NCBI GenBank assembly: GCA_018654745.1
Contig: JABILA010000085.1
Location: forward strand, 1 to 64,000
Source of the DNA: Alphaproteobacteria bacterium
GTDB taxonomy: Bacteria > Pseudomonadota > Alphaproteobacteria > UBA2966
DNA length: 64,000 bases
Direction of reading: 5' to 3'
The notes below the pieces were generated by a model. It did no database searches. It was not told the origin of the DNA and saw only the letters and a list, made by a program, of their open reading frames with translations. Position numbers and translations under genes: made by a program. Of this stretch, positions 11,542-39,146 are shown in pieces (position 1 is the stretch's first letter; each line of letters begins with the position of its first letter).

Positions 11542-11949
11542 TCAGCCAAAGCCAATGGCAGCGGCGATTTCCTTGCGCAGGTCGGGGGCTGAAATAGGTT
11601 TGGTCAGAACCTTGGTAGCGCCTGCCTGTTCGGTGACTTCATGCATGAATTTGTCGCTGTCACCTGTCAGAATCAGGATCGGAATACCGGCCAGTTTCGG
11701 GACTTTGTTGCGACGCACCAGGTTTGAAAATTCCAGTCCGTCGACATTCGCCATATGCAAATCGCAAATAACCAGATCGGGTGGCTGATTGGCTGGATGT
11801 TGCAAATAATCCAGCGCCTGTTGCCCGTCTTCGGCCTCAATAACATTATTGATTTCGACCTGGCTCAGCAGGCTTCGAATGATCATGCGCATGGCGCGTT
11901 GATCATCAACAATCATGATACATAATTCACTTAGCGGATCGTCTGACAT
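11542..11949 (-). CDS. Single-domain response regulator (CheY-like)
   Basis: A 135-residue stand-alone receiver with no output domain. The acidic pocket is Asp15/Asp16 (IMIVDDQ), the phosphoacceptor is Asp63 (VICDLHMAN), the switch Thr is in ILTGDSD and the conserved lysine is in VLTKPIS. I set the start at the ATG of MSDDPLS because GGAGG lies four bases upstream. An upstream in-frame ATG adds seven residues without a ribosome-binding site. It follows the NIPSNAP gene by about 85 bases on the same strand and is the last gene of a run that begins with the hybrid kinase at 16159. It is a candidate acceptor for that kinase's Hpt domain. Confidence 0.92.
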   Translation of the reverse strand: MSDDPLSELCIMIVDDQRAMRMIIRSLLSQVEINNVIEAEDGQQALDYLQHPANQPPDLVICDLHMANVDGLEFSNLVRRNKVPKLAGIPILILTGDSDKFMHEVTEQAGATKVLTKPISAPDLRKEIAAAIGFG

Positions 11950-12036
11950 CAAACCTCCGTTGCGTTCCACCGATAGTACGGTGGGCAGCTTCTACAAAAT
12001 ACCAAAAAGACTTCACGCCATTGTCGATAAAAAATG

Positions 12037-12372
12037 TCAGCTTTCTACTGGTTTCGGCTCGGGCAGAAAATCAACAGAGTTCATCAGCTTGTTTTCCTGA
12101 TTGATCAGGGCACCCAGATTCTTACTCTCAACAGTATAGGCCAACCATTCTTTATCGGCCCAGAGGGCTGCTCGCTTGGCCTCACGGTCACCTGCATTTT
12201 CATAGGCCCAGATGTGCATATACTGGTTCGGATTGCCGGTTTCCGTCGTCATATAGGCCAATGGTGCTCCCAGACAGCGTTTCTGCGGTGGCAAGCCAAG
12301 ACGGGCGTAGAGTTCCATGTGCTGTTTCAGCGTTCCGGGACGGCAAGTATAGGTGCGAACATCCAAAAGCAT
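12037..12372 (-). CDS. NIPSNAP family protein
   Basis: A 111-residue protein of the NIPSNAP family, a ferredoxin-like alpha/beta fold related to stress-responsive barrel proteins. The opening MLLDVRTYTCRPGTL and the later NQYMHIWAYENAGDREAKRAA segment are characteristic. The bacterial members have no agreed biochemical role; many sit beside catabolic enzymes. Here it is flanked on both sides by single-domain response regulators on the same strand, an unusual setting. Length is normal for the family, and there is no signal peptide. AGGACC lies about seven bases before the ATG. Function is not assigned. Confidence 0.87.
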   Translation of the reverse strand: MLLDVRTYTCRPGTLKQHMELYARLGLPPQKRCLGAPLAYMTTETGNPNQYMHIWAYENAGDREAKRAALWADKEWLAYTVESKNLGALINQENKLMNSVDFLPEPKPVES

Positions 12373-12462
12373 ATCAAAGGTCCTTCAATCAGTATTTATT
12401 TGGTTTGATCATAGCCCGGACAGGGCACGAGCGAAAAGGCGTACGCCACAGAATAAGCGGGT

Positions 12463-12897
12463 TTACTTTCGCTTTAGTTTGGCGGGATCGATCATCGGCC
12501 CCATGATGGCGTTGGAAAGCCGTGATTCCAGTGCTTTTTTGGCAACCGGCTTCACCAGATATCCGTTGATCCCTTTTTCAACGACCCCCACGATATGTTC
12601 TTCGTCTGAGTGTCCGGTCAAAATAACGACGGGTATTTTTGACATTTTCTGATCCGGAAGGTTGCGCAGCCTGCCGACAAATTCTGTCCCGTTCATGGTC
12701 GGCATTTCAAGGTCACAAATGATCACATCGATCTGTGATCCCAATGCCTGCACGCTGCCGAGGCCTTGCGCCCCGTTTTCAGCCAAAACCACTTCTCGCA
12801 CGCCAATATCATGCAAAACGCGTCCGACCAGCTTGCGCATAAAATCTTCGTCGTCGATCACGAGCACTTTCAACGACGCCATGTCGATTTTTGCCAT
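12463..12897 (-). CDS. Single-domain response regulator (CheY-like)
   Basis: A 144-residue receiver domain protein. Asp15/Asp16 (VLVIDDED), phosphoacceptor Asp62 (VIICDLEMP), Thr in VILTGHSD and Lys in YLVKPVAKK are all present, so it should be phosphorylatable. A basic C-terminal tail (DPAKLKRK) is the only extension. GAGGGG six bases before the ATG supports the start. It is 61 bases downstream of the hybrid kinase-Hpt gene (16159-12959) and in the same orientation, so it is the most likely terminal acceptor of that phosphorelay. Confidence 0.93.
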   Translation of the reverse strand: MAKIDMASLKVLVIDDEDFMRKLVGRVLHDIGVREVVLAENGAQGLGSVQALGSQIDVIICDLEMPTMNGTEFVGRLRNLPDQKMSKIPVVILTGHSDEEHIVGVVEKGINGYLVKPVAKKALESRLSNAIMGPMIDPAKLKRK

Positions 12898-12958
12898 TCT
12901 GATCCCCTCTCGTCTTTATCGCCTGAAACAATTTGTCTCAGGAATAATTCATCAATCC

Positions 12959-15900
12959 CTATAAGGCCTTAATATAATCAATAACTTCTGCAAGAACAGC
13001 AGGTATTGACGGTGCAAGATCTGCAATGGTGTCTGCATCACCGGATTTGCCCGCAATTTCCAGTTGCTCACAGAGTTCTCCCAGCTGGATTGCACCAACA
13101 GAACGCGAGGAAGATTTCAGTTTGTGAGCGGCTGATCCGACACCTGCCGCATCCCCGGCCTCTACGGCGTCGGTGATTTCCTTCACATTTGCCGTTGCCG
13201 GGTCCACAAAATCACCGAGGATTTCACGAAACGTTTCTTCATCATCGCCAAAAACACTCTTCAGTGCTTGCGGGTCTACTGGTGAGCCGCCGTTGCCATT
13301 GCCCGGCGCTGCCGTCGGAACTGCCGTTACTATTTCGATGTTGTCACCGGGTTCAGCCTCGGCGCTGTCAGAGGCCCCGTTATCCATGGAAGCTTCGTCG
13401 TTTGAACGCCCGTCATCAGAATGCAACACATCCGGCAGCCATTTCGCCAGTGCCCGTCGCAGTTTCAGCATCTCCAACGGTTTCGAGAGATAGTCATCCA
13501 TGCCCGAGGCCAGACAACGATCGGCCTCCCCCTGCAGGGCATTGGCTGTGATGGCAACAATGGGAATACGCTCGCCCGTGGATTGCTCCGCCCCGCGGAT
13601 GGCCTCCGTCATCTCATAACCATCCATGTTTGGCATGTGGCAATCCGTCAATATCAGGCCATAGCGGCCACTGCGCCAGGCTTCAAAACCCAGTTCCCCA
13701 TCATCAACAATCTCGGCCGTATAGCCCAAGAGATTGAGCTGCCGTCTTATCACATCCTGATTGGTGAGGTTATCTTCCGCGATCAGGATCAACTCGCCAT
13801 TGGCTTCGGCGTCTTCAATAGACGGTGCCTTGCGGTTCGTTTCAACCGCATCAACCTTGTGTTCGTTGATATCGGGGCTGGCACGTCCTGCTGCCATGGC
13901 CACGCCCCGGAAAAAAGAGGATCGCATCAGCGGGGCTGCTTCAACGATCACCATATCCGGTGGACGCTGGCCGCGTGTTTCGGTGCGGGTATCATCGAGG
14001 ATGACGTATCTCGGAATGTCACCCTTTGTCACCTTGCGGCATTCATCCAGGACCTGCCAGATTTCAGTTAATTTGTTCGTCAGACAGAAGACAACAACAT
14101 CATGCCCTGCATCTGCTGCCTGCGCCGACTGCAGCGTCGCCGCGACCTGGCTGATATCGGCCAGTACTTCTGGCTCGGCATCGCGTGAGGCCAGATAATG
14201 CGAGACATTGCCTGTGGCAAGCTCACTATCGACGACAACCAGTACCTTGAGACCCTTTAAGTCATCTTCATCTGCTTCCGGTCCTGTTTTGGGCACTTCA
14301 CTGAACGGAATACTGATGGAAAATGTCGATCCTTCGCCCATGACACTTTCAACAAGGATATCACCGCCCATGATGTCCGCCAGATTTTTGCAAATGGAAA
14401 GTCCGAGGCCCGTGCCGCCAAACCTGCGCGTTGTCGATTCTTCCGCCTGGGTAAAAGGCGTGAACAAGCTGGCCCGACTTTCTTCTGTCATGCCAATGCC
14501 AGTGTCCTTGATCACAAATTTAACCCGCGTAGCTTCCGATCCCGTTACGTCGGACGCATAGGCACCGATATAGACTTCACCTGATCGGCCATCACGATTG
14601 TCCGTAAACTTGACGGCATTGCCCATCAGGTTGAACAGGATTTGGCGAAGCCGCACCTGGTCCGCTGTTATCCGGGCCGGAATGTCAGGGTCGACAAAAA
14701 TGCGCAGTCTCAGTTTCTTTTTCTGGATTTCCGGCAGGAGGGTTTCGGCGACACCTTCGACAACATCCCTGATCGATATCGGCAACAGTTCCAGATCAAG
14801 TTTTCCCGCTTCGATTTTTGAGAAATCAAGAATATCGTTGATGATTTGCAGCAGGGAAAATGCCGAGGAACGGATGGTGCCCAGCATCTTGCGTTGCTCG
14901 GCTGCCAGCTTGTCCTGCCAGAGCAAATCGATCATGCCGATGACACCGTTCATGGGTGTGCGGATTTCGTGGCTCATCGCCGCCAGGAAAGACGACTTGG
15001 CCCGCGTTGCAGATTCTGCGGCATCCCTGGCCAGAACCAGTTCGGCTTCACCTTTTTTGCGCTCGGTAATGTCAGAAATGACAATTACAACGCCGCCGCC
15101 GTCTACACCGGACTGGCGTCCCTCAAGCCAACGACCGTCAAGCGTTTCAATGTCGAAGACCTGCTCGTCCCGTTCTCGCAGAACTGCTATGCGCTGCTCG
15201 ACAAGTTCCTCAATATCACCTTCGCCATATCGCCCGTCCACGGCAAGAAAACGCATTGTTTCCTGCACCGGCATGCCAATTTCCGGCATACCGTCCGGCA
15301 GGCCATACATTTCAATATAGCGCCGGTTAAACATGATGAATTTGTAGTCACCATCCAGTGCGAAGATGGCCTCGTGCATATTATCGAGTGCGAATTGCAA
15401 TTGCGTGGAGGCAGCCGTTGCTTCTTTGGTACGGTCCTCAATCAATTGTTCCAGCTGATCCTGATATTTTTTCAGCTCGTTTTCAGCGTCTGCCCTGCGT
15501 TGTTGCATACGGTTAAAGTTTTGTACCAAAGAGCCAAGCTCATCCGTGCTGGACCACTCCACCTGGGTATAGACTTTTTCCGCGTCAACACGGTCAATTG
15601 CATCGCGCAAACGATCCAGTGGCTTTCCAATTACATTTCGGGTCGCAACAAATGTCACAATCGTCAGAGCACCCGACATGACCAGCAGAATCAGAAAGTC
15701 CAGCAATACCCGGTTGCTGATTTCAGTCCAGATATTGCCGCTGTTGCCGGTAAGCACCAATTCGCCGACAGTCTCTGACTTTGCGCCAACGGTTCTGCTG
15801 ACAGCACCACGTTGACGCAAATCTTCTGCCTCCGGGACAGCCTTGTAATCGCCCTTGGACGCCATCAGATCTCCACCGGAATCATAAACAGCAATGCTGC

Positions 15901-25736: not shown

Positions 25737-28700
25737 TCAGGTGTCCTGACCTGCCAGGGCTTGTTCCAATGCGGGTGTCACAGCATTAAAACCTTGTTCC
25801 CTTGCTTCGTCCAGAACAGCCTGTGCTTCGGCCATGTTTTCTTCAGTTCTGTGTCCGCGCCCCAGTTCAGCCAACACCCGCGCCCGCCGGATAATCAGGC
25901 TCATCCAGGGGATCGGTTGTTCAGATATATATTCTTCGGCGGCTTCGGCAATGGCGTCGGCACCATCCAGATTGCCCGCCTGCAACAAGGCATCCATGGC
26001 ATTGCGATAAAACCAGATGTGACTGTGGCCAACACAGCCCTGTTCCAGAACCGCCATGCCTTCGGTGATGGCCATTCGCCGTTCTTCATCATTGTCGGTC
26101 GCCAGGGCCAGGGCGCCCATAGCCAGCGGTCCGGCGAACAAAATACCGGTTTCACGACTGATTTCAACAGCCTTTCGTGCATGTTCGATAGCCTTGCTCC
26201 GATTGTCCCCGACCAGTTCAATCTGTGTCAGGATGGCAAGATTTACAGGTTCAAACCGCCGGGCACCTATCCTTGTGGCAATATCAAGAGCCGTTTCGAC
26301 TTCCTTGCGGGAGGCGTCATAATCACCCATGTCAAACAGGATTTTCCCGGCACAACTCCCCCTGGCAACCATTTCAGCCCGGTCGTTCCCGTTTTCAACG
26401 GCAAGTCGGGCGGCCAGCGTGACGTTTTCCAACGCCTTGTCCATCTCCAGCAGATACAACAAGGAATGGCTGTACATGGCCCGGTTCACAGGTTCGATCT
26501 GCTTCAACCCATGCTGTTCAACGACATCAAGACAGGCCTTGAAACTGTCATGTGCTGTGATCAAATGTCCGCGCATAAACCAGGCGTCGCCAAGGCCACT
26601 TAGTGCCCTGGCTTCCATGGCCGGTGAAGATGCTTTGCGGGCGAATTGCTGGGCCATTTCATGTTCGTTCAAACAGCCATCGATATTGCCCATGGGGAAA
26701 TAGATATTTCCGCGCATGTAATGTATTTCTGCCAGTGCTTCGTCATTTGCAGAAGCCGTTGCATCTGTTTCGGCAAGCTCCAGCGCTTTGAGGGCATCCG
26801 GATAACGATCCAGAATGCGCAGACCCGCAACCAGGTCCAGCAAGAGCGGTAATTCCAGCTTTGCACGTTGTTCGGCATCCGGCATCAGTGGCATTAATTC
26901 CAGACCACGTTCAAGATGCCCAACGGCTTCCGCGCTGGCCCAGCGTTCCGCAGCTTTCTCTGCCGCCTCTTTCCACAGGGGTACCGCCTTTTCCGCCGAC
27001 CGGGCCTCTGAATAATGGTGCGCCAGAATTTCGGTTGGGACGGGATCGTCTCTGGTACTGCGCGCGGCCAGGGCATTGGCAATGTCCAGGTGATAACGTT
27101 GCCGGGTCGCCTTTAACAAGGATTCGTAAGCCGTATCCTGCACCAGCGCGTGTTTGAACTGAAATGTTGCGGAAGGTGGCAAGCTGCGACGAACGATCAA
27201 GTCTGCGTCGATCAACTGTTCCAACGCCAGGCGCAAATCATCAATATCCAGTTTGCAAACGTCGGCGAGAACATCTTCGTCAAACTGGCGGCCAACAACC
27301 GCCGCAATTTGTGCGACTTCCTTGACCGGGGCCATACGATCGAGACGCGCCATCAGGCTGTCATGCAAAGACGCCGGAATTTCAATGCCCTGCATCTTGC
27401 CCGCAAGTTCATACTTGCCGTCGACGATCTCAAGCGATCCGGATTCGAGAACGGTTTTGGTCAGTTCTTCAATGAATAACGGTACACCATCGGTACGTTC
27501 AACAATCTGGTTCAGAACGGACGTTGGCAATTTTGCCTCACCAGCAATACCCGCGATCAAGGCTTCACTGTCAGAGCGGCTCAAACGGTTCAAAGTGAAG
27601 GTTGTCACGTGCGGATGGCCCAACCACGGTGCCTGATATTCCGGTCGCGTGCTGAGAACCAGTAATAGCCGCAAGTCCCGCAACCGTTCTATCAATAAAC
27701 TGCAGAATTCCTGGGTAGATGGATCGATCCAGTGAATATCTTCGCCGATCATGATCAGGGGATGTATTTTGGTCTGGGCTTCGAGCAAAGCCAGCAAGGC
27801 ATCCCAAACCCGTCGGCGTTGCTCCTCGGGCGTGCCACCTGAATATTCGACTGGCAAAGTGGCGCCGTCGATCATGACCGTAGCGACAAAGGGCACAATC
27901 CCGTCCGGGTCCAGTTCCGTGGCAGCAACAAACTGTGTCAGTTTTTCCAGGCGCTCAGTCGCCGAATCAGACCGGACAATCCCCATGACCCGTTCAAGGC
28001 AGCCAATAATCGGGTAAAGCGCCGAGTTTTTGTGAAAGGGTGAGCACGACAGTGTGATCCTGGCCTGGTCCTCATCTTCAACGCTTCGCATAAAGGCTTC
28101 AACGATGCGGGATTTGCCAACACCGGCCTCTCCCGACAACATCACAACCTGCCCTTCACCACTTTTTGCCTGCCGCCAGCGACCCTGCAACAAACCAATT
28201 TCTTCCTGACGACCGACCAGGGCGCTAAGGCCTGCCTCGGTCGTTGCTTCGAACCGACTGGTGGTCTGACTAATCGCGGTGACGCGCCAGGCATTTTCTG
28301 GCGCTGCGATGCCTTTGAGGTTTTGACGCCCGAGGTCTTCATAGTCAAAAAATCCGCCGACCAGGCGATGGGTGCCATCACTGATCACAACCGAATCATA
28401 TTCCGCGAGCCCCTGAAGTCTGGCGGCCAGATTTGGTGTTACACCAAGAACAACACGTTCTTCAGAAGCGCCACTGCCGATGAGATCTCCGGCAACAACC
28501 AGCCCTGTCGCTACGCCAATTCTGACATGCAAATCAAGACCAGGCCGTACCTTCAGAGCCTTGATCCGGGCGACGATATCCAGACCGGCATGAACTGCCC
28601 TTTCCGGGTCGTCTTCATGGGCGCGGGGATAACCAAAATAGACAAGAATACCGTCGCCCATGTAACGAGCGATATATCCGTTCCATTTCTCAATTACGCT

Positions 28701-29084
28701 GGCGGCCGCTGACTGATAGGCCGCAATGACATCGCGCAAATCTTCCGGATCCAGTTGGCCCGAAAGTTCCGTTGAATCAGCCAGGTCGCAAAACATGACA
28801 GTCAGATGTCGACGTTCGGCAGCACTGTCACTCAGGGCTGGAGATTCTTTGACTTGTGGCCTGGAAACAACGGGTGGAGGGGCAGAAGCTTCGGATGTTG
28901 CACTGGTGCGAATGTCAAAACCGCAATTACCGCAGAAATTATTTCCGCCAACGATTTCATTGCCGCAAGACGGGCAGGCATCCGGCAATCGTGTACCGCA
29001 GCCGCCGCAAAACCGGTTTGCTGAGGGGTTTTCAAAGGCACAAGATGGACAATTGACGACGCTTGCCGTCCCGTCATCACTCAC
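25737..29084 (-). CDS. Zinc-ribbon, class III cyclase, AAA ATPase and TPR protein
   Basis: A 1115-residue signalling protein. Two zinc ribbons (Cys12/15/26/29 and 37/40/51/54) open it. A class III nucleotide cyclase domain (about 92-265) follows with metal-binding Asp100 (FCDLADST) and Asp144 (MGDGILVYFG). A large STAND/AAA-type ATPase comes next with Walker A GEAGVGKS (318-325) and a DIHWID Walker B-like segment. The C-terminal third (about 690-1110) is a helical array of TPR type. Both metal aspartates of the cyclase are present, but whether it makes cAMP or cGMP is not settled by what I can see. No membrane segment; it should be cytosolic. It is the first gene of a pair with the two-helix protein, 24 bases after the subtilase gene stop. 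Confidence 0.9.
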   Translation of the reverse strand: MSDDGTASVVNCPSCAFENPSANRFCGGCGTRLPDACPSCGNEIVGGNNFCGNCGFDIRTSATSEASAPPPVVSRPQVKESPALSDSAAERRHLTVMFCDLADSTELSGQLDPEDLRDVIAAYQSAAASVIEKWNGYIARYMGDGILVYFGYPRAHEDDPERAVHAGLDIVARIKALKVRPGLDLHVRIGVATGLVVAGDLIGSGASEERVVLGVTPNLAARLQGLAEYDSVVISDGTHRLVGGFFDYEDLGRQNLKGIAAPENAWRVTAISQTTSRFEATTEAGLSALVGRQEEIGLLQGRWRQAKSGEGQVVMLSGEAGVGKSRIVEAFMRSVEDEDQARITLSCSPFHKNSALYPIIGCLERVMGIVRSDSATERLEKLTQFVAATELDPDGIVPFVATVMIDGATLPVEYSGGTPEEQRRRVWDALLALLEAQTKIHPLIMIGEDIHWIDPSTQEFCSLLIERLRDLRLLLVLSTRPEYQAPWLGHPHVTTFTLNRLSRSDSEALIAGIAGEAKLPTSVLNQIVERTDGVPLFIEELTKTVLESGSLEIVDGKYELAGKMQGIEIPASLHDSLMARLDRMAPVKEVAQIAAVVGRQFDEDVLADVCKLDIDDLRLALEQLIDADLIVRRSLPPSATFQFKHALVQDTAYESLLKATRQRYHLDIANALAARSTRDDPVPTEILAHHYSEARSAEKAVPLWKEAAEKAAERWASAEAVGHLERGLELMPLMPDAEQRAKLELPLLLDLVAGLRILDRYPDALKALELAETDATASANDEALAEIHYMRGNIYFPMGNIDGCLNEHEMAQQFARKASSPAMEARALSGLGDAWFMRGHLITAHDSFKACLDVVEQHGLKQIEPVNRAMYSHSLLYLLEMDKALENVTLAARLAVENGNDRAEMVARGSCAGKILFDMGDYDASRKEVETALDIATRIGARRFEPVNLAILTQIELVGDNRSKAIEHARKAVEISRETGILFAGPLAMGALALATDNDEERRMAITEGMAVLEQGCVGHSHIWFYRNAMDALLQAGNLDGADAIAEAAEEYISEQPIPWMSLIIRRARVLAELGRGHRTEENMAEAQAVLDEAREQGFNAVTPALEQALAGQDT

Positions 29085-33974: not shown

Positions 33975-34352
33975 ATGAATTTGCAGGAATTTGCGGAAGT
34001 TGTCGTTCTGGCGCCAATGGGTCGCGTCGATCACACCAGTGCGGAGAGTTTTCAATCCGAATTACTGGAACATGTTGGCCAATGTGCTGCGGCGGACAAA
34101 CACATCATTCTGGATATGAGCGGCATCGACTATATGAGCAGCGTCGGCCTGCGGGCGCTGATGATCGCCTCGAAGGAAAGCAAAAAAACGGAGATGTCCA
34201 TCGTCGTTTCTGCCTTGCAGCCGGACATGAAAGAAATCTTTGAAATCAGCCGCTTTCATTTTGTCTTCAAGACATTCGACACCACCGCCGAGGCCATAAA
34301 GGGTTTCTCCGATGCGGCGGTCGCCGCCTGGTCTGCCGGACAAGAGGACTGA
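33975..34352 (+). CDS. STAS-domain anti-sigma factor antagonist
   Basis: A 125-residue single STAS domain protein of the SpoIIAA/RsbV type, which releases a target from an anti-sigma kinase when unphosphorylated. The core IILDMSGIDYMSSVGLRALM has the phosphorylatable serine (Ser55 or Ser56) before the GL turn. The start at 33975 (MNLQEF) fits the length of the family; earlier in-frame starts would add about 64 unlike residues. A GAGGGG stretch lies about 13 bases upstream. The MBL hydrolase follows after three bases and the PP2C phosphatase next, so the three form an operon. The matching kinase is probably the RsbW-like protein at 38676. Confidence 0.92.
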   Translation: MNLQEFAEVVVLAPMGRVDHTSAESFQSELLEHVGQCAAADKHIILDMSGIDYMSSVGLRALMIASKESKKTEMSIVVSALQPDMKEIFEISRFHFVFKTFDTTAEAIKGFSDAAVAAWSAGQED

Positions 34353-34355
34353 TCA

Positions 34356-35315
34356 ATGAAGGTTCACTTTTGGGGCACACGGGGTTCGTTACCGGTTTCC
34401 CTTACGGGCGATGGCATTCGCAAAAAAGTCTTTCAGGCGTTGCAAAAGGCAAACGGCAAGCAGTTTGCGGATGATACTGCAATCAGCGATTTCATGGATT
34501 CCGAACTGGCCTTTCACCAGCGGAGTGGATTTGGGGGCTCGTCGTCCTGTGTCGAAATCAAGGTGCCGGGACAAGACTATATCGTCTGCGATATGGGCTC
34601 TGGTTTGCGAGAGCTGGGCCAGCAAATCATGCAGGAACATGGCCCTGGAAAACCGCAGACATATAATATCTTCATGTCGCACCCCCATTGGGACCACATC
34701 ATGGGGCTGCCGTTTTTCCCCCCGGCCTATATTCCCGGCAACAAGCTGCGCATTCACGGTGGTCACGACACTTTGGAACAGGCCTTGCGCAAACAACAGG
34801 AAGACCCCTGTTTTCCTGTGCATTTTGACTTTCTGGGCGCTGATATCGAATTCATCAAACTGACACCGAGTGAGCCTTTTCAGTGTGGCGATGTCACGGT
34901 TCACACCATCCGCCAGCCCCATCACGGCGATTCATACGGTTATCGGTTTGAAAATAGCGGCAAGGCTGTGGTCTATTCCACGGATGCCGAACACAAACTG
35001 GAATCCGAAGAGGAAACAGCAGAGTTTGTCGATTTCTTCAAGTCCGCTGACCTGCTGATATTTGACGCCATGTATACGATGGCAGACATGATATCCGTGA
35101 AAGAAGACTGGGGTCATTCCAGCAACATTATCGGTGTCGATCTTTGCCATCGTGCTGGCGTCAAACATTATTGCATGTTTCATCACGAGCCTGTTTTTGG
35201 CGACAAGGCCCTGTCGGAAATCCTGGCCGAAACCATTCGCTATGAGGAGATCATCAGGGACGGCGACGCCCTGAAAGTTTCCTCCGCCTATGATGGCCTG
35301 GAAATCGTGATTTGA
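34356..35315 (+). CDS. Metallo-beta-lactamase-fold hydrolase
   Basis: A 319-residue cytosolic MBL-fold protein. The metal motif is HPHWDH (His109, His111, Asp113, His114), and further ligands are expected at His190 or nearby in RQPHHGDS and Asp210 in YSTDAEHK. The opening VHFWGTRGSLPVS and the SGFGGSSSCVEI stretch resemble PhnP/RNase Z-like phosphodiesterases, including hydrolases of cyclic nucleotide or tRNA-type substrates. An insert between residues about 22 and 57 is longer than usual. It sits between a STAS gene and a PP2C gene with no more than three bases spacing on either side, which is not a standard part of a partner-switching operon. Substrate unknown. Confidence 0.85.
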   Translation: MKVHFWGTRGSLPVSLTGDGIRKKVFQALQKANGKQFADDTAISDFMDSELAFHQRSGFGGSSSCVEIKVPGQDYIVCDMGSGLRELGQQIMQEHGPGKPQTYNIFMSHPHWDHIMGLPFFPPAYIPGNKLRIHGGHDTLEQALRKQQEDPCFPVHFDFLGADIEFIKLTPSEPFQCGDVTVHTIRQPHHGDSYGYRFENSGKAVVYSTDAEHKLESEEETAEFVDFFKSADLLIFDAMYTMADMISVKEDWGHSSNIIGVDLCHRAGVKHYCMFHHEPVFGDKALSEILAETIRYEEIIRDGDALKVSSAYDGLEIVI

Positions 35316-35316
35316 T

Positions 35317-37467
35317 GTGGCGGCAAATATCGCCCCCAACACCCTGAATACTGGCTGGTCCGGTCACCCCCTGGCCCGTGGCCTGGCGGTGGAACACGGA
35401 CGCCTGCTTGCAGTTATCGTTTTGATCCTGGTGGTTCTGGCACAATCCGTTATTTCACAATCCGGTTTTAACCGCGTCGGCCAAAGTCTGCAGGATTTTT
35501 ATCACCGGCTGGCACCGCGTGACGTCACCAGCCTGCCCGTGGTCATTGTCGATATTGACGAAGCGACCCTGAAAGCACAGGGACAGTGGCCCTGGCCCCG
35601 GACACGACTGGCCGAACTTATCGACAAAGTTGGAAGGCAGAAACCACTTGCTATCGGCCTTGATATCATCATGCCCGAACCTGATCGCCTGTCACCGGGA
35701 CGGTTCGCCAGGGAACAACCAGGCATACCCGCTGAACTCGGCAGGCAACTGGCCACTTTGCCGTCGAACGATAACTTGTTTGCACAAACGATAGCGCGCT
35801 GGCCCGTCGCCCTGGGTCGTGCGGCGTTGACGGTTAAACAACAGTCCGGTGATCTGGCCCCGGTGCCTCAAACGCCTGTGCAAATCAGTGACAGCCGACA
35901 GCTGGCATCCTTCCCACAATTTGCGGATCATCTGACAAATACGAGGGAAATCGAAAAGACAGCTTTCGGTTATGGGTACCTTAATTCTGTTCTCGACCCT
36001 GACGGCATCATGCGACGGGTACCGACGGTCATTAAAGTCAGCAAACAACTGGCCCCCACCATGGGGGTTGAGCTGATCAGGATCGCCCTGGGCGCAAACT
36101 GGATCGAGACGATGAAGACGGCCGACGGCGTTGACGGCGTGCGCATTGGTGACATTGTTTTGCCAACGGACCCGGATGGCTGGATTGATCTGCATTTTTC
36201 ACCGGCTGATCCCCGCAGACGCGTATCAGCCCAGAAGATATTTCAGGGGGCTATCGATAAAAGCCTATTGGAAAACAAACTGGTCATGATCGGGGTTACG
36301 GGATTGGGTGTGGCCGATGTCTATTCGACGCCCGTGACACCGCGTATGGACGGTGTCGAAATTCAGGCCCAGTTTATTGAAAACCTGCTCTATGGAACCC
36401 GTCTCGCCAAATCACCAGACAGCGGCGCCAGCGTGTTGATCGCATTGTTGATCGTGGCCAGCCTGATCATCGTGTTGGGTCCGCGTTTTGGGCCAGGTTT
36501 CATGACAGCAGCAACCGTTGCCATCGTCGCCTTGTCACTGGTCGTTGGCTTCGAATTTTTTCGTCTGGCCCAACAACTGGTTGATCCTGGGTTCCTGATC
36601 CTGGGTGTTGTGTTGAGTTATCTGGTGATGATGGTTGCCCGGATCATTGAAGATGATCAGGACCGTCGCCTGATGTCGTTTAATTTACTGGTTGAGCGCG
36701 AAGACAACGCACGCATGTCCGGCGAACTGAATGCGGCCCGGGAAATCCAGATGGGTATTCTGCCGGACCCTGAAAATATTGAAGGTTTGCCGGAAAACCT
36801 GGATCTACATGCGTTTCTGGAACCCGCCCGGGAAGTCGGTGGCGATCTTTATGACCTGTTCATGCTGGATGAACACCGGTTGTTTTTTGTCATAGGCGAT
36901 GTGTCTGGAAAAGGCGTGCCTGCCTCCCTGTTCATGGCTCTGAGCAAGGCCTTGTGCAAAAGTGCCGCCTTGCGCACAGATGCGTCGGTGGCAGAATTGA
37001 TGACAACAGCCAACAGGGAAATATCGCGTGAAAACCCGGCCTTCATGTTTGTGACGGCGGTTGCAGGCGTTATCGATTCGCGTACCGGAGAACTTGAATT
37101 TTGTAATGCTGGCCACGATTCACCCTGTGTCGTGGCCCCCGGCCTGGCGACAAAGTCACTGAACAGTGATGGTGGACCACCTTTGTGTGTGATCGATGAT
37201 TTTGACTACCCCCTGGACAAAGCCAGACTGGAGCCGGGCGAGACCCTGGTACTGACAACAGATGGTGTCAACGAAGCCATGACAGCAAGCCAGAAAATGT
37301 ATGGCACCGACCGCTTGACGGTTTGCCTGACCAGGAATTCGGATAATAATGCGCCCAAGAATGTCGTTGCGACCTTGTATGACGACGTCAAGACTTTCGT
37401 CGCCGGGGCCGAACCCAACGACGATATCACCGTCGTTGCGATCCGCTTTCGCGAACCGGTTATCTGA
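35317..37467 (+). CDS. CHASE2-domain membrane protein with SpoIIE-type PP2C phosphatase
   Basis: A 716-residue sensor phosphatase. A first membrane helix (about 29-47) is followed by an extracellular CHASE2 domain (about 50-350) with the DIDEATLKAQGQWPWPR motif. Three helices (about 366-436) anchor it, then a coiled linker, then a PPM/SpoIIE phosphatase domain (about 465-715). Metal residues are seen in GGDLYDLF (Asp510), IGDVSGKGVPAS (Asp528) and the final NDDITVV. Such enzymes dephosphorylate STAS proteins. The start is a GTG one base after the MBL stop. Its 3' end overlaps the convergent OmpA gene by eight bases. Confidence 0.92.
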   Translation: MAANIAPNTLNTGWSGHPLARGLAVEHGRLLAVIVLILVVLAQSVISQSGFNRVGQSLQDFYHRLAPRDVTSLPVVIVDIDEATLKAQGQWPWPRTRLAELIDKVGRQKPLAIGLDIIMPEPDRLSPGRFAREQPGIPAELGRQLATLPSNDNLFAQTIARWPVALGRAALTVKQQSGDLAPVPQTPVQISDSRQLASFPQFADHLTNTREIEKTAFGYGYLNSVLDPDGIMRRVPTVIKVSKQLAPTMGVELIRIALGANWIETMKTADGVDGVRIGDIVLPTDPDGWIDLHFSPADPRRRVSAQKIFQGAIDKSLLENKLVMIGVTGLGVADVYSTPVTPRMDGVEIQAQFIENLLYGTRLAKSPDSGASVLIALLIVASLIIVLGPRFGPGFMTAATVAIVALSLVVGFEFFRLAQQLVDPGFLILGVVLSYLVMMVARIIEDDQDRRLMSFNLLVEREDNARMSGELNAAREIQMGILPDPENIEGLPENLDLHAFLEPAREVGGDLYDLFMLDEHRLFFVIGDVSGKGVPASLFMALSKALCKSAALRTDASVAELMTTANREISRENPAFMFVTAVAGVIDSRTGELEFCNAGHDSPCVVAPGLATKSLNSDGGPPLCVIDDFDYPLDKARLEPGETLVLTTDGVNEAMTASQKMYGTDRLTVCLTRNSDNNAPKNVVATLYDDVKTFVAGAEPNDDITVVAIRFREPVI

Positions 37468-38083
37468 CGATAATCTCAACCCGCCGGTTCAGGGGTTCCG
37501 CAACACTATCCTTTGTCGGCACCAGCAATTCACGCTCGCCCCGTCCGGTCGTTAAAATACGTTTGGTCCCAAGGTCCCGTGTCTTCAGCATTTCTGCCAC
37601 TGCCCGCGCCCGTTTAAGCGCCAGGTCGTCATTTGTTTTCAGTCGGCCAACCGTATCCGTATGGCCGGTGACCTGAACTTCAGCCACCTGGCGGCTGGCA
37701 ACCTCAAGCAATACCATGCGCATGGCAGGCTTTGACTTGGCCAACAGATCGGTGCTGCCCTTGGCGAAATAAAGCGTAAAAGAAACCGGTTCAGGTGGCA
37801 CGGCTTGCAGCGCCTGGGCGAAGGTCTTGTCGACTTCTTCCTGGTTCAGGGTAACCGCCTGCGTTTGCTCAGGTCCCTCACCGACGCGAGCCGCGGCCAA
37901 AGCCTTGTTCAGGACAGTTTTATTCTCGCCATTACTGACGATAACTGTGCCGACCTTGCCCGTTGAATCCGGCAACAATACGATTAGTTCAGATGGTCCT
38001 TTGGGTGCTGCACAGGCTGTCACCAACGATAACAAAACCAGTGCAGCACTGGCACGTAAACCTGATTTCAAAATCATCTTCAT
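37460..38083 (-). CDS. OmpA-family lipoprotein
   Basis: A 207-residue lipoprotein. The signal peptide ends with the lipobox LVTAC, so Cys24 would be lipidated. A poorly conserved middle leads into an OmpA C-terminal peptidoglycan-binding domain (about 98-207) with the expected VTGHTDTVG, RARAVAEML and NRRVEIIVR. It should anchor the envelope to peptidoglycan. The ATG overlaps the FecR stop (ATGA), so the two are co-translated; the gene converges on and overlaps the CHASE2 phosphatase gene end. This FecR-OmpA pair next to a CHASE2 phosphatase suggests envelope sensing, which is inference. Confidence 0.9.
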   Translation of the reverse strand: MKMILKSGLRASAALVLLSLVTACAAPKGPSELIVLLPDSTGKVGTVIVSNGENKTVLNKALAAARVGEGPEQTQAVTLNQEEVDKTFAQALQAVPPEPVSFTLYFAKGSTDLLAKSKPAMRMVLLEVASRQVAEVQVTGHTDTVGRLKTNDDLALKRARAVAEMLKTRDLGTKRILTTGRGERELLVPTKDSVAEPLNRRVEIIVR

Positions 38084-38541
38084 TGGCCTGCCCCCGCATC
38101 ATCAACCTTGACCAGGAAGCGTGTTCCCCTGACACCGAGGATTGATGCCGGTGTCATGACCTTCATGGCATCGGGTGAGCGTTTGGCGATTTGCCCGGAG
38201 ATAACAGATAGCGTGCCGCGTTTGACACGGGTGTTGAATTCACCGTCATGGGTCGTAGAGTTAAACCTGAAACGACTGAGTTCGATCCGGCTGTTGGGAC
38301 CCGAGGACATCCGTGTGCTGTCAATGAAAGTCATGCCAAGCTGACCATCCGCGCCAGTGACAATCGTGTCTGCCTGCTCAAGCGCATCACCTGCTTCGGC
38401 CGTCAAGGTTTTTCCAGCCCGCTCGATCTCAACCTTGCCTTTGAGCGTTTTGATCTGGCCGATATCCGCCAGAGCCAGCGGCGCAGAGATCAGAAATGTT
38501 CCAATCAAAGCAGTAATCATTAAGCTTGTGCGCATAAACAT
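38080..38541 (-). CDS. FecR-domain periplasmic protein
   Basis: A 153-residue exported protein when started at the ATG at 38541, which has GGAAGG seven bases upstream; longer starts lack such a site. A signal peptide (to about LALA-DI) is followed by a FecR domain in which the core GQIKTLKGKVEIERAGKT, GDALEQADTIVTG and TPASILGVRGTRFLV stretches are present. This free-standing form, without an N-terminal anti-sigma part, is often paired with OmpA-type or CHASE2 proteins and is thought to sense or assemble in the periplasm. It is the first gene of the pair with the OmpA lipoprotein. Confidence 0.9.
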   Translation of the reverse strand: MFMRTSLMITALIGTFLISAPLALADIGQIKTLKGKVEIERAGKTLTAEAGDALEQADTIVTGADGQLGMTFIDSTRMSSGPNSRIELSRFRFNSTTHDGEFNTRVKRGTLSVISGQIAKRSPDAMKVMTPASILGVRGTRFLVKVDDAGAGQ

Positions 38542-38675
38542 GAACCAACCTTCCGATATTTCCGAAAATATTAGAGCGTTTGCGGTCGAAATGAAACGCT
38601 GTGATTTCCTTATCTCCAGTTGAATACCAGAGTCCCGAAATTCACATCCGGCCAAACTGTTCTACCTGATGTGTA

Positions 38676-39146
38676 TTGCCATTGGCAAAAGACAATGGTG
38701 ATAATGCAAATACCTTACGGGTCAACGTAAACAAGGGTAGCCGCTTGAAAAGACAATTGCCTTATGGACCGCTGTTAACCCACGAAGCTGTAGAATTCGT
38801 GGAACAGATTGGCCACGCCTACAGTCTGGGGCCAACCATACGGCACAAACTTACCTTGATCGTTGAAGAGCTGGTCACCAACAGTGTGAATTACGGTAAG
38901 ATGGCCGCTGATGGCCATGTTGAGCTGGATGTCGAGGTCAAGGACGATGCAGCCTGTCTGCGCTACTGCGATACCGGCATCGCCTTTGATCCTGTCAGCA
39001 ACGCTCCCGACGACGACCGGCAGCTGGCGGCAAGGGAGCGACGTGTTGGCGGACTGGGCTGGCCGCTGATCAAGGACCTGTCGACGGATCTTGAATATCA
39101 ACGCCTTGATGGTCAAAACCAGATAACCCTGAAGTTATTGTTGTAG
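38676..39146 (+). CDS. RsbW-like anti-sigma/serine kinase (HATPase_c_2)
   Basis: A 130-156 residue protein with a GHKL ATPase domain of the RsbW/SpoIIAB kind. The N box is VEELVTNSVNYG, the G1 region is YCDTGIAFDP and the G2 region is GGLGWPLI. Such proteins phosphorylate a STAS partner on serine and hold a sigma factor or other target. The frame opens at a TTG (38676), but a second TTG at 38745 with AAGGGT nearby fits the domain start better, so the 5' end is uncertain. It is divergent from the FecR gene. With the STAS and PP2C genes upstream it completes a partner-switch set. Confidence 0.85.
   Translation: MPLAKDNGDNANTLRVNVNKGSRLKRQLPYGPLLTHEAVEFVEQIGHAYSLGPTIRHKLTLIVEELVTNSVNYGKMAADGHVELDVEVKDDAACLRYCDTGIAFDPVSNAPDDDRQLAARERRVGGLGWPLIKDLSTDLEYQRLDGQNQITLKLLL

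Follow-up and report, generated by a model that had tools for sequence, protein, structure and literature searches.

In Pseudomonas aeruginosa, the SiaABCD system joins a membrane PP2C phosphatase, a small kinase and a STAS-like antagonist in a partner switch, in which the phosphorylatable antagonist, SiaC, binds directly to a second-messenger enzyme of the same operon, the diguanylate cyclase SiaD, and activates it (PMC8457831; PMC7647112). HsbA-HsbD of P. aeruginosa and BgrUVW of Sinorhizobium meliloti are cited as further partner switches that end in cyclic di-GMP (c-di-GMP) metabolism (PMC7647112). For RbaVWY of Rhodobacter capsulatus, no cognate sigma factor was identified and the STAS protein apparently determines the output (PMC3999984). 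On the sensory side, the BiofilmReg operon of Burkholderia encodes a CHASE2 histidine kinase together with a LysM-FecR protein (PMC5192318). In this study, we relate these systems to a six-gene module that encodes partner-switch proteins, a CHASE2 sensor, FecR and OmpA domains and a hydrolase of the metallo-beta-lactamase (MBL) fold. The module lies within a stretch of 64,000 nucleotides (the window; positions 1 to 64,000 of contig JABILA010000085.1, assembly GCA_018654745.1) from an alphaproteobacterium of the UBA2966 lineage. Its genes, each with a Pfam match well above cut-off, and the divergent intergenic region are the following.

33975-34352, plus strand: STAS protein (RsbV/SpoIIAA-like), 125 amino acids (PF01740, 73.5 bits)
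34356-35315, plus strand: MBL-fold hydrolase, 319 amino acids (PF12706, Lactamase_B_2, 60.9 bits)
35317-37467, plus strand: CHASE2 periplasmic sensor, transmembrane segment and SpoIIE-type PP2C phosphatase, 716 amino acids (PF05226, 174.9 bits; PF07228, 159.2 bits)
37460-38083, minus strand: OmpA-domain lipoprotein with lipobox LVTAC, 207 amino acids (PF00691, 56.8 bits)
38080 to about 38541, minus strand: FecR-domain periplasmic protein with Sec-type signal peptide (PF04773, 41.1 bits)
38542-38675, no strand: divergent intergenic region between FecR and RsbW (from the sequence)
38676-39146, plus strand: RsbW-like serine kinase, 156 amino acids (PF13581, HATPase_c_2, 64.7 bits)

Only 3 bases separate STAS from MBL and 1 base separates MBL from CHASE2-PP2C, while the OmpA gene converges on the latter with an 8-base overlap of their ends and is joined to FecR by an ATGA overlap. 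The FecR reading frame stays open to 38655, with 38541 as the likely ATG, and RsbW is divergent from it, starting about 134 bases beyond. An earlier reading of the letters alone (the sequence-only reading) had given coordinates, relative orientations, gaps and the 8-base overlap that proved exact to the base, and the block that it had marked out, 33975-39146, is exactly the one that is conserved in our neighbourhood survey.

Compared with the described systems, the module works like SiaABCD or HsbA/HsbD and is a member of neither, because its PP2C lies far below the cut-off of the SiaA equivalog (NF038263; 39 bits against 700) and its enzyme is a hydrolase. Where the output of SiaABCD is SiaD, the window module has the MBL-fold protein, and no GGDEF domain was found among the six genes. 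SiaA is not known to have a CHASE2, FecR or OmpA input. HsbA-HsbD and BgrUVW, the latter also alphaproteobacterial, resemble the module in having a non-sigma output; that output is c-di-GMP synthesis or level, and the cited description mentions no MBL enzyme. RbaVWY is, like the module, alphaproteobacterial and without an identified sigma factor, and no MBL gene is mentioned for it. In BiofilmReg, as in the module, a periplasmic protein with a FecR domain is encoded alongside a CHASE2 sensor, but the CHASE2 domain of BiofilmReg sits on a histidine kinase with a response regulator, whereas that of the window sits on a PP2C phosphatase, and no STAS, RsbW, MBL or OmpA is mentioned there. A literature search, confined largely to papers outside subscription journals, found no paper describing a STAS-MBL or CHASE2-PP2C-MBL module.

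That the six genes form one conserved unit is strongly supported. Our survey covered 34 orthologues of MBL plus a weak relative (L068), one genome per species, with neighbouring genes labelled by profiles built from the module; locus counts refer to relatives without the window itself and to loci whose sequence reaches far enough. The closest MBL relatives (43-90% identity) carry the same cluster, and hosts, judged by record titles and the tree, are Alphaproteobacteria, Burkholderiales, Desulfobacterota and Rokubacteria; cultured carriers include Hwanghaeella grinnelliae and Desertibaculum subflavum. All 31 readable loci of the CHASE2 clade have STAS on the same strand as MBL and upstream of it, a count that includes L040, where the two are fused, and L038, where RsbW stands between them. 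CHASE2-PP2C follows directly downstream of MBL in 29/31 of these loci, and the convergent OmpA-FecR pair comes next in 20 of the 28 with PP2C and no truncation at that point. The position of RsbW varies: the window and several other loci have it divergent from FecR, many delta-type loci place it upstream of STAS, and in L113 it comes downstream of MBL. The edges of the block are sharp, since the flanking genes of the window (cyclase, subtilase, PAS-histidine kinase, porin, dehydrogenase) are kept as a block only within the same genus.

Whole genomes served as an independent sample. Among 385 alphaproteobacterial genomes, 15 have the MBL orthologue, 13 a module-type CHASE2-PP2C and 12 both; in these 12 the two genes are adjacent or a contig ends inside the module. 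In G207, the halves of MBL fall on two contigs, one beside STAS and the other beside PP2C. A further phylum sample yielded two more carriers, both with the order STAS-MBL-CHASE2-PP2C. Seven of the eight genomes without a local RsbW have exactly one clear unlinked RsbW-sized match, and the eighth (G325) has one unlinked match plus a fragment at a contig end. A plasmid search for MBL gave no match at E 1e-40. As the same order recurs in several phyla, the earlier proposal that the six genes are one unit holds.

A few loci near this pattern deserve mention in their own right. The CHASE2-PP2C gene of G325 (L120, 3339-7713) is in two parts about 2.3 kb apart, presumably by insertion. A 10 kb contig of G176 (L127) carries the C-terminal part of PP2C with OmpA, FecR and RsbW, no MBL or STAS, and upstream a gene for an AstE/AspA-like protein, so that a rearrangement or assembly error is possible. 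In two alphaproteobacterial genomes of 1.2-1.3 Mb (L117 of G111, L118 of G308), a remote CHASE2-SpoIIE gene is followed by a FecR-domain gene, with no MBL. In the window itself, about 5 kb from the module, the protein encoded at 25737-29084 (minus strand) is large, with a class III cyclase domain at its N-terminus and then an apparent ATPase/TPR-type region. This gene was found only in the closest relative; it is therefore not part of the module, and the cyclase was ruled out as the source of an MBL substrate.

A partner switch with CHASE2/FecR envelope input is well founded, since STAS, RsbW and PP2C keep every catalytic or phospho-acceptor residue, and the assignment of these three proteins to a partner switch by the sequence-only reading thus stands. 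The predicted phospho-acceptor of STAS is S56, in YMSSVGLR, and alignment places Ser at this position in 40/41 module STAS proteins. RsbW has an N box (EELVTN) and G boxes (DTGIAFDP, GGLGWPL), with the positions of E65, N69, D99, G125 and G128 conserved across module loci, as are the metal-binding Asp motifs of PP2C; these boxes and aspartates, together with the MBL metal ligands, are essentially invariant. The locus provides a STAS protein with a predicted phosphorylatable Ser, an RsbW with N and G boxes and a PP2C with intact Asp residues; what it lacks is a cognate SigB/F/G-type sigma factor, the classical output, which non-sigma variants do without. In the window genome (assembly estimated 94.7% complete), the module STAS is the only stand-alone STAS found, the other four matches lying in open frames of 407-595 amino acids; the module PP2C is the only SpoIIE-type phosphatase found; and the module RsbW is the only match in a short, RsbW-sized frame, the others lying in open frames of 331-1044 amino acids. 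Because each is the sole match of its kind, the switch looks insulated in this genome. Separately, a Desulfobacteraceae draft genome encodes RsbW and STAS as one fused open reading frame (L054:7159-7983).

For the input, FecR and OmpA would be the envelope-side partners of CHASE2, which we infer because CHASE2 and FecR co-occur beyond the module. We chose 20 CHASE2 genes lying outside the module context by hand from the upper end of the alphaproteobacterial list, for spread over families and hence not at random; the stretches around them contain a FecR-domain gene in 12 cases and STAS, RsbW or MBL in none (0/20). An OmpA lipoprotein is less common away from the module, with 1/20. In the window genome, a CHASE2-histidine kinase on C44 also adjoins a FecR protein, as in BiofilmReg. 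The FecR protein of the module consists of a signal peptide and a FecR domain, with no other domain by Pfam, and no FecI or sigma factor gene occurs among its annotated neighbours. In FecI-FecR systems, by contrast, FecR has a cytoplasmic anti-sigma domain and an adjacent FecI. Without such a domain, the locus is not to be read as a FecI-FecR pair, and a role of this FecR as FecI anti-sigma factor was ruled out.

The MBL protein is probably a metal-dependent phosphodiesterase, as judged from its predicted structure and conserved residues. The HxHxDH motif, H189, D210, the GHS motif and H276 are conserved, and an AlphaFold2 model reached a pLDDT of 89.9 and a pTM of 0.90. Its nearest folds by VIA Z are RNase Z (28.7 for the Escherichia coli enzyme, and 28.4), YhfI (27.7), yeast PDE1 (23.4), Brucella MBL proteins with GMP or AMP (22) and Apyc1 (20.1), with PhnP-family proteins also among them; YhfI, PDE1 and RNase Z have been grouped with the class II phosphodiesterases (PMC9117128). 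With these relatives the module protein has in common the fold and the dinuclear-metal HxHxDH site, followed by downstream metal ligands, as in the class II phosphodiesterase superfamily. It differs from them in an N-terminal helical insertion of about 40 residues (helices 18-31, 40-50 and 53-56), which alignment shows to be absent from the three paralogues of the window genome compared, and in passing no NCBIfam equivalog cut-off: it scores 58.4 bits against the RNase Z equivalog TIGR02651 (cut-off 292.95) and 45.6 against the cyclic-nucleotide phosphodiesterase equivalog NF041851 (cut-off 400). The first of these scores is so far below its cut-off that an RNase Z orthologue was ruled out. 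By way of conjecture, the helical insertion may be the docking site for STAS.

Several indirect lines of evidence make it likely that this enzyme is the output of the switch, namely a natural fusion, its retention when the sensor is exchanged, the lack of a suitable sigma factor and a residual gene pair. In L040, STAS and MBL form a single protein of 448 residues with a proline-rich linker, and both domains are well conserved. In Syntrophorhabdaceae-type loci, a dCache-HAMP-PP2C phosphatase, preceded by an NMT1/THI5-like binding protein, takes the place of the CHASE2 version and MBL is retained; the two versions separate in the MBL tree with strong support. None of the 14 module genomes has a SigB/F/G-type sigma factor above the TIGR02980 cut-off, their best matches being RpoD- and RpoH-sized proteins, so that a classical sigma-factor output is ruled out and the absence of a sigma factor gene, first noticed at the locus, extends to whole genomes for this type. 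In G139, a search for RsbW and a SpoIIE phosphatase found neither, STAS and MBL remain side by side with the MBL active site intact, and its STAS, alone among the 41, has Ser56 replaced (by Asn), as would be expected were Ser56 the switch residue and STAS-MBL the end of the pathway. MBL domains are also signalling outputs outside the module: one paralogue of the window genome is a response-regulator receiver fused to an MBL domain (REC-MBL; L073:6625-7839, C30), and another belongs to a gene row that also encodes a response regulator, a methyltransferase and a class III cyclase (L071:6817-7650, C104).

We therefore offer the following model in conditional form. From the periplasm and the outer membrane, FecR and the OmpA lipoprotein would report a state of the envelope to CHASE2, which would control the cytoplasmic SpoIIE-type PP2C. 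The phosphate on Ser56 of STAS would be added by RsbW and removed by PP2C, and one phosphorylation state of STAS would bind the MBL enzyme and set its activity. By analogy with SiaC and HsbA, the binding state would most likely be unphosphorylated STAS, which when phosphorylated or held by RsbW would not bind; the substrate would most likely be a nucleotide second messenger. The sign of the switch, the STAS-MBL contact, the substrate and the sensed signal are parts that we infer. For the model as a whole, with its FecR/OmpA/CHASE2 input, PP2C/RsbW/STAS switch and MBL output, we judge the chances to be somewhat better than even. The more specific version, in which STAS directly gates the phosphodiesterase through the helical insertion and envelope stress leads to second-messenger clearance without a sigma factor, is a possibility that we put forward tentatively and at less than even chances. 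Of the envelope-to-cytosol signalling system with an MBL enzyme that the sequence-only reading had envisaged, the single unit is thus strongly supported, and the part given to the enzyme has gained indirect support from the fusion, the sensor swap and the residual pair.

Several observations weigh against this interpretation. The L040 fusion and the joint loss seen in G139 were each met only once, in draft genomes, and small-molecule and RNA substrates cannot be told apart by the fold alone. Five of the seven dCache-type loci with SpoIIE in reach, and also L052, have RsbW-STAS at a distance of about 6 kb, next to an efflux cluster. In five loci (L055, L057, L060, L062, L067), the MBL orthologue has no partner-switch gene in the stretch examined, so that MBL can work without STAS. 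G125 has CHASE2-PP2C beside recQ, and MBL was not found in this genome (81% complete); G258 and G337 keep STAS-MBL (with RsbW in G337) and have no clear PP2C, G258 having one weak match of 40.6 bits. Two features of these loci are worth recording apart from the argument: the MBL orthologue follows a PAS-histidine kinase in L060, L062 and L067, with a receiver domain by Pfam in the last two; and in L048, within the Syntrophorhabdaceae ABC efflux cluster headed by STAS and RsbW, a gene (11684-13465, minus strand) encodes an HlyD-type membrane fusion protein with a PAS domain fused N-terminally, an unusual combination.

The alternative that survives best is that the switch targets another, unlinked protein, such as a regulator, an atypical sigma factor or a cyclase, with MBL working in parallel to the switch or at an earlier step, for instance by removing a small molecule that would set it off, or being a co-regulated housekeeping enzyme. 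The orthologues without a partner switch nearby fit this, as does RbaVW in R. capsulatus, whose STAS protein acts through intermediaries of unknown identity and for which no sigma factor of its own was found (PMC3999984). We nevertheless consider it rather unlikely, given that STAS and MBL stay paired when PP2C and/or RsbW are lost (G139, G258, G337), are fused in L040, and that MBL is the component kept between CHASE2 and dCache versions. An output in RNA processing or decay, with MBL as a STAS-gated ribonuclease like RNase Z or RNase J, would account for the highest VIA Z values (28.7 and 28.4, to RNase Z), the conserved RNase Z-type His-Ser motif (GHS) and the weak match to TIGR02651; it appears improbable, as that match reaches 58 against a cut-off of 293, YhfI, described as a class II phosphodiesterase (PMC9117128), lies within 1 Z unit of RNase Z, and paralogues occur in second-messenger settings (REC-MBL; beside a cyclase). 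Finally, that a STAS/PP2C operon, an MBL gene and a FecR-OmpA pair were brought together by accident has a negligible chance and is ruled out by the neighbourhood survey, in which the triad is neither confined to this genome nor mostly without MBL, order and orientation are the same across phyla, and boundaries against flanking genes are sharp.

Taking MBL as the likely output, the module bears on how partner switches are understood. These switches were defined as controllers of sigma factors, and the few enzyme outputs described in the papers considered here work via the synthesis or level of c-di-GMP; a switch paired with a hydrolase, present in several phyla and with sensors that can be exchanged, would broaden the range of outputs. 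The module is small, testable and often the sole partner switch in its genome, as profile searches found for the window genome, and, stand-alone FecR domains being widespread, it offers a route to what CHASE2 and stand-alone FecR sense.

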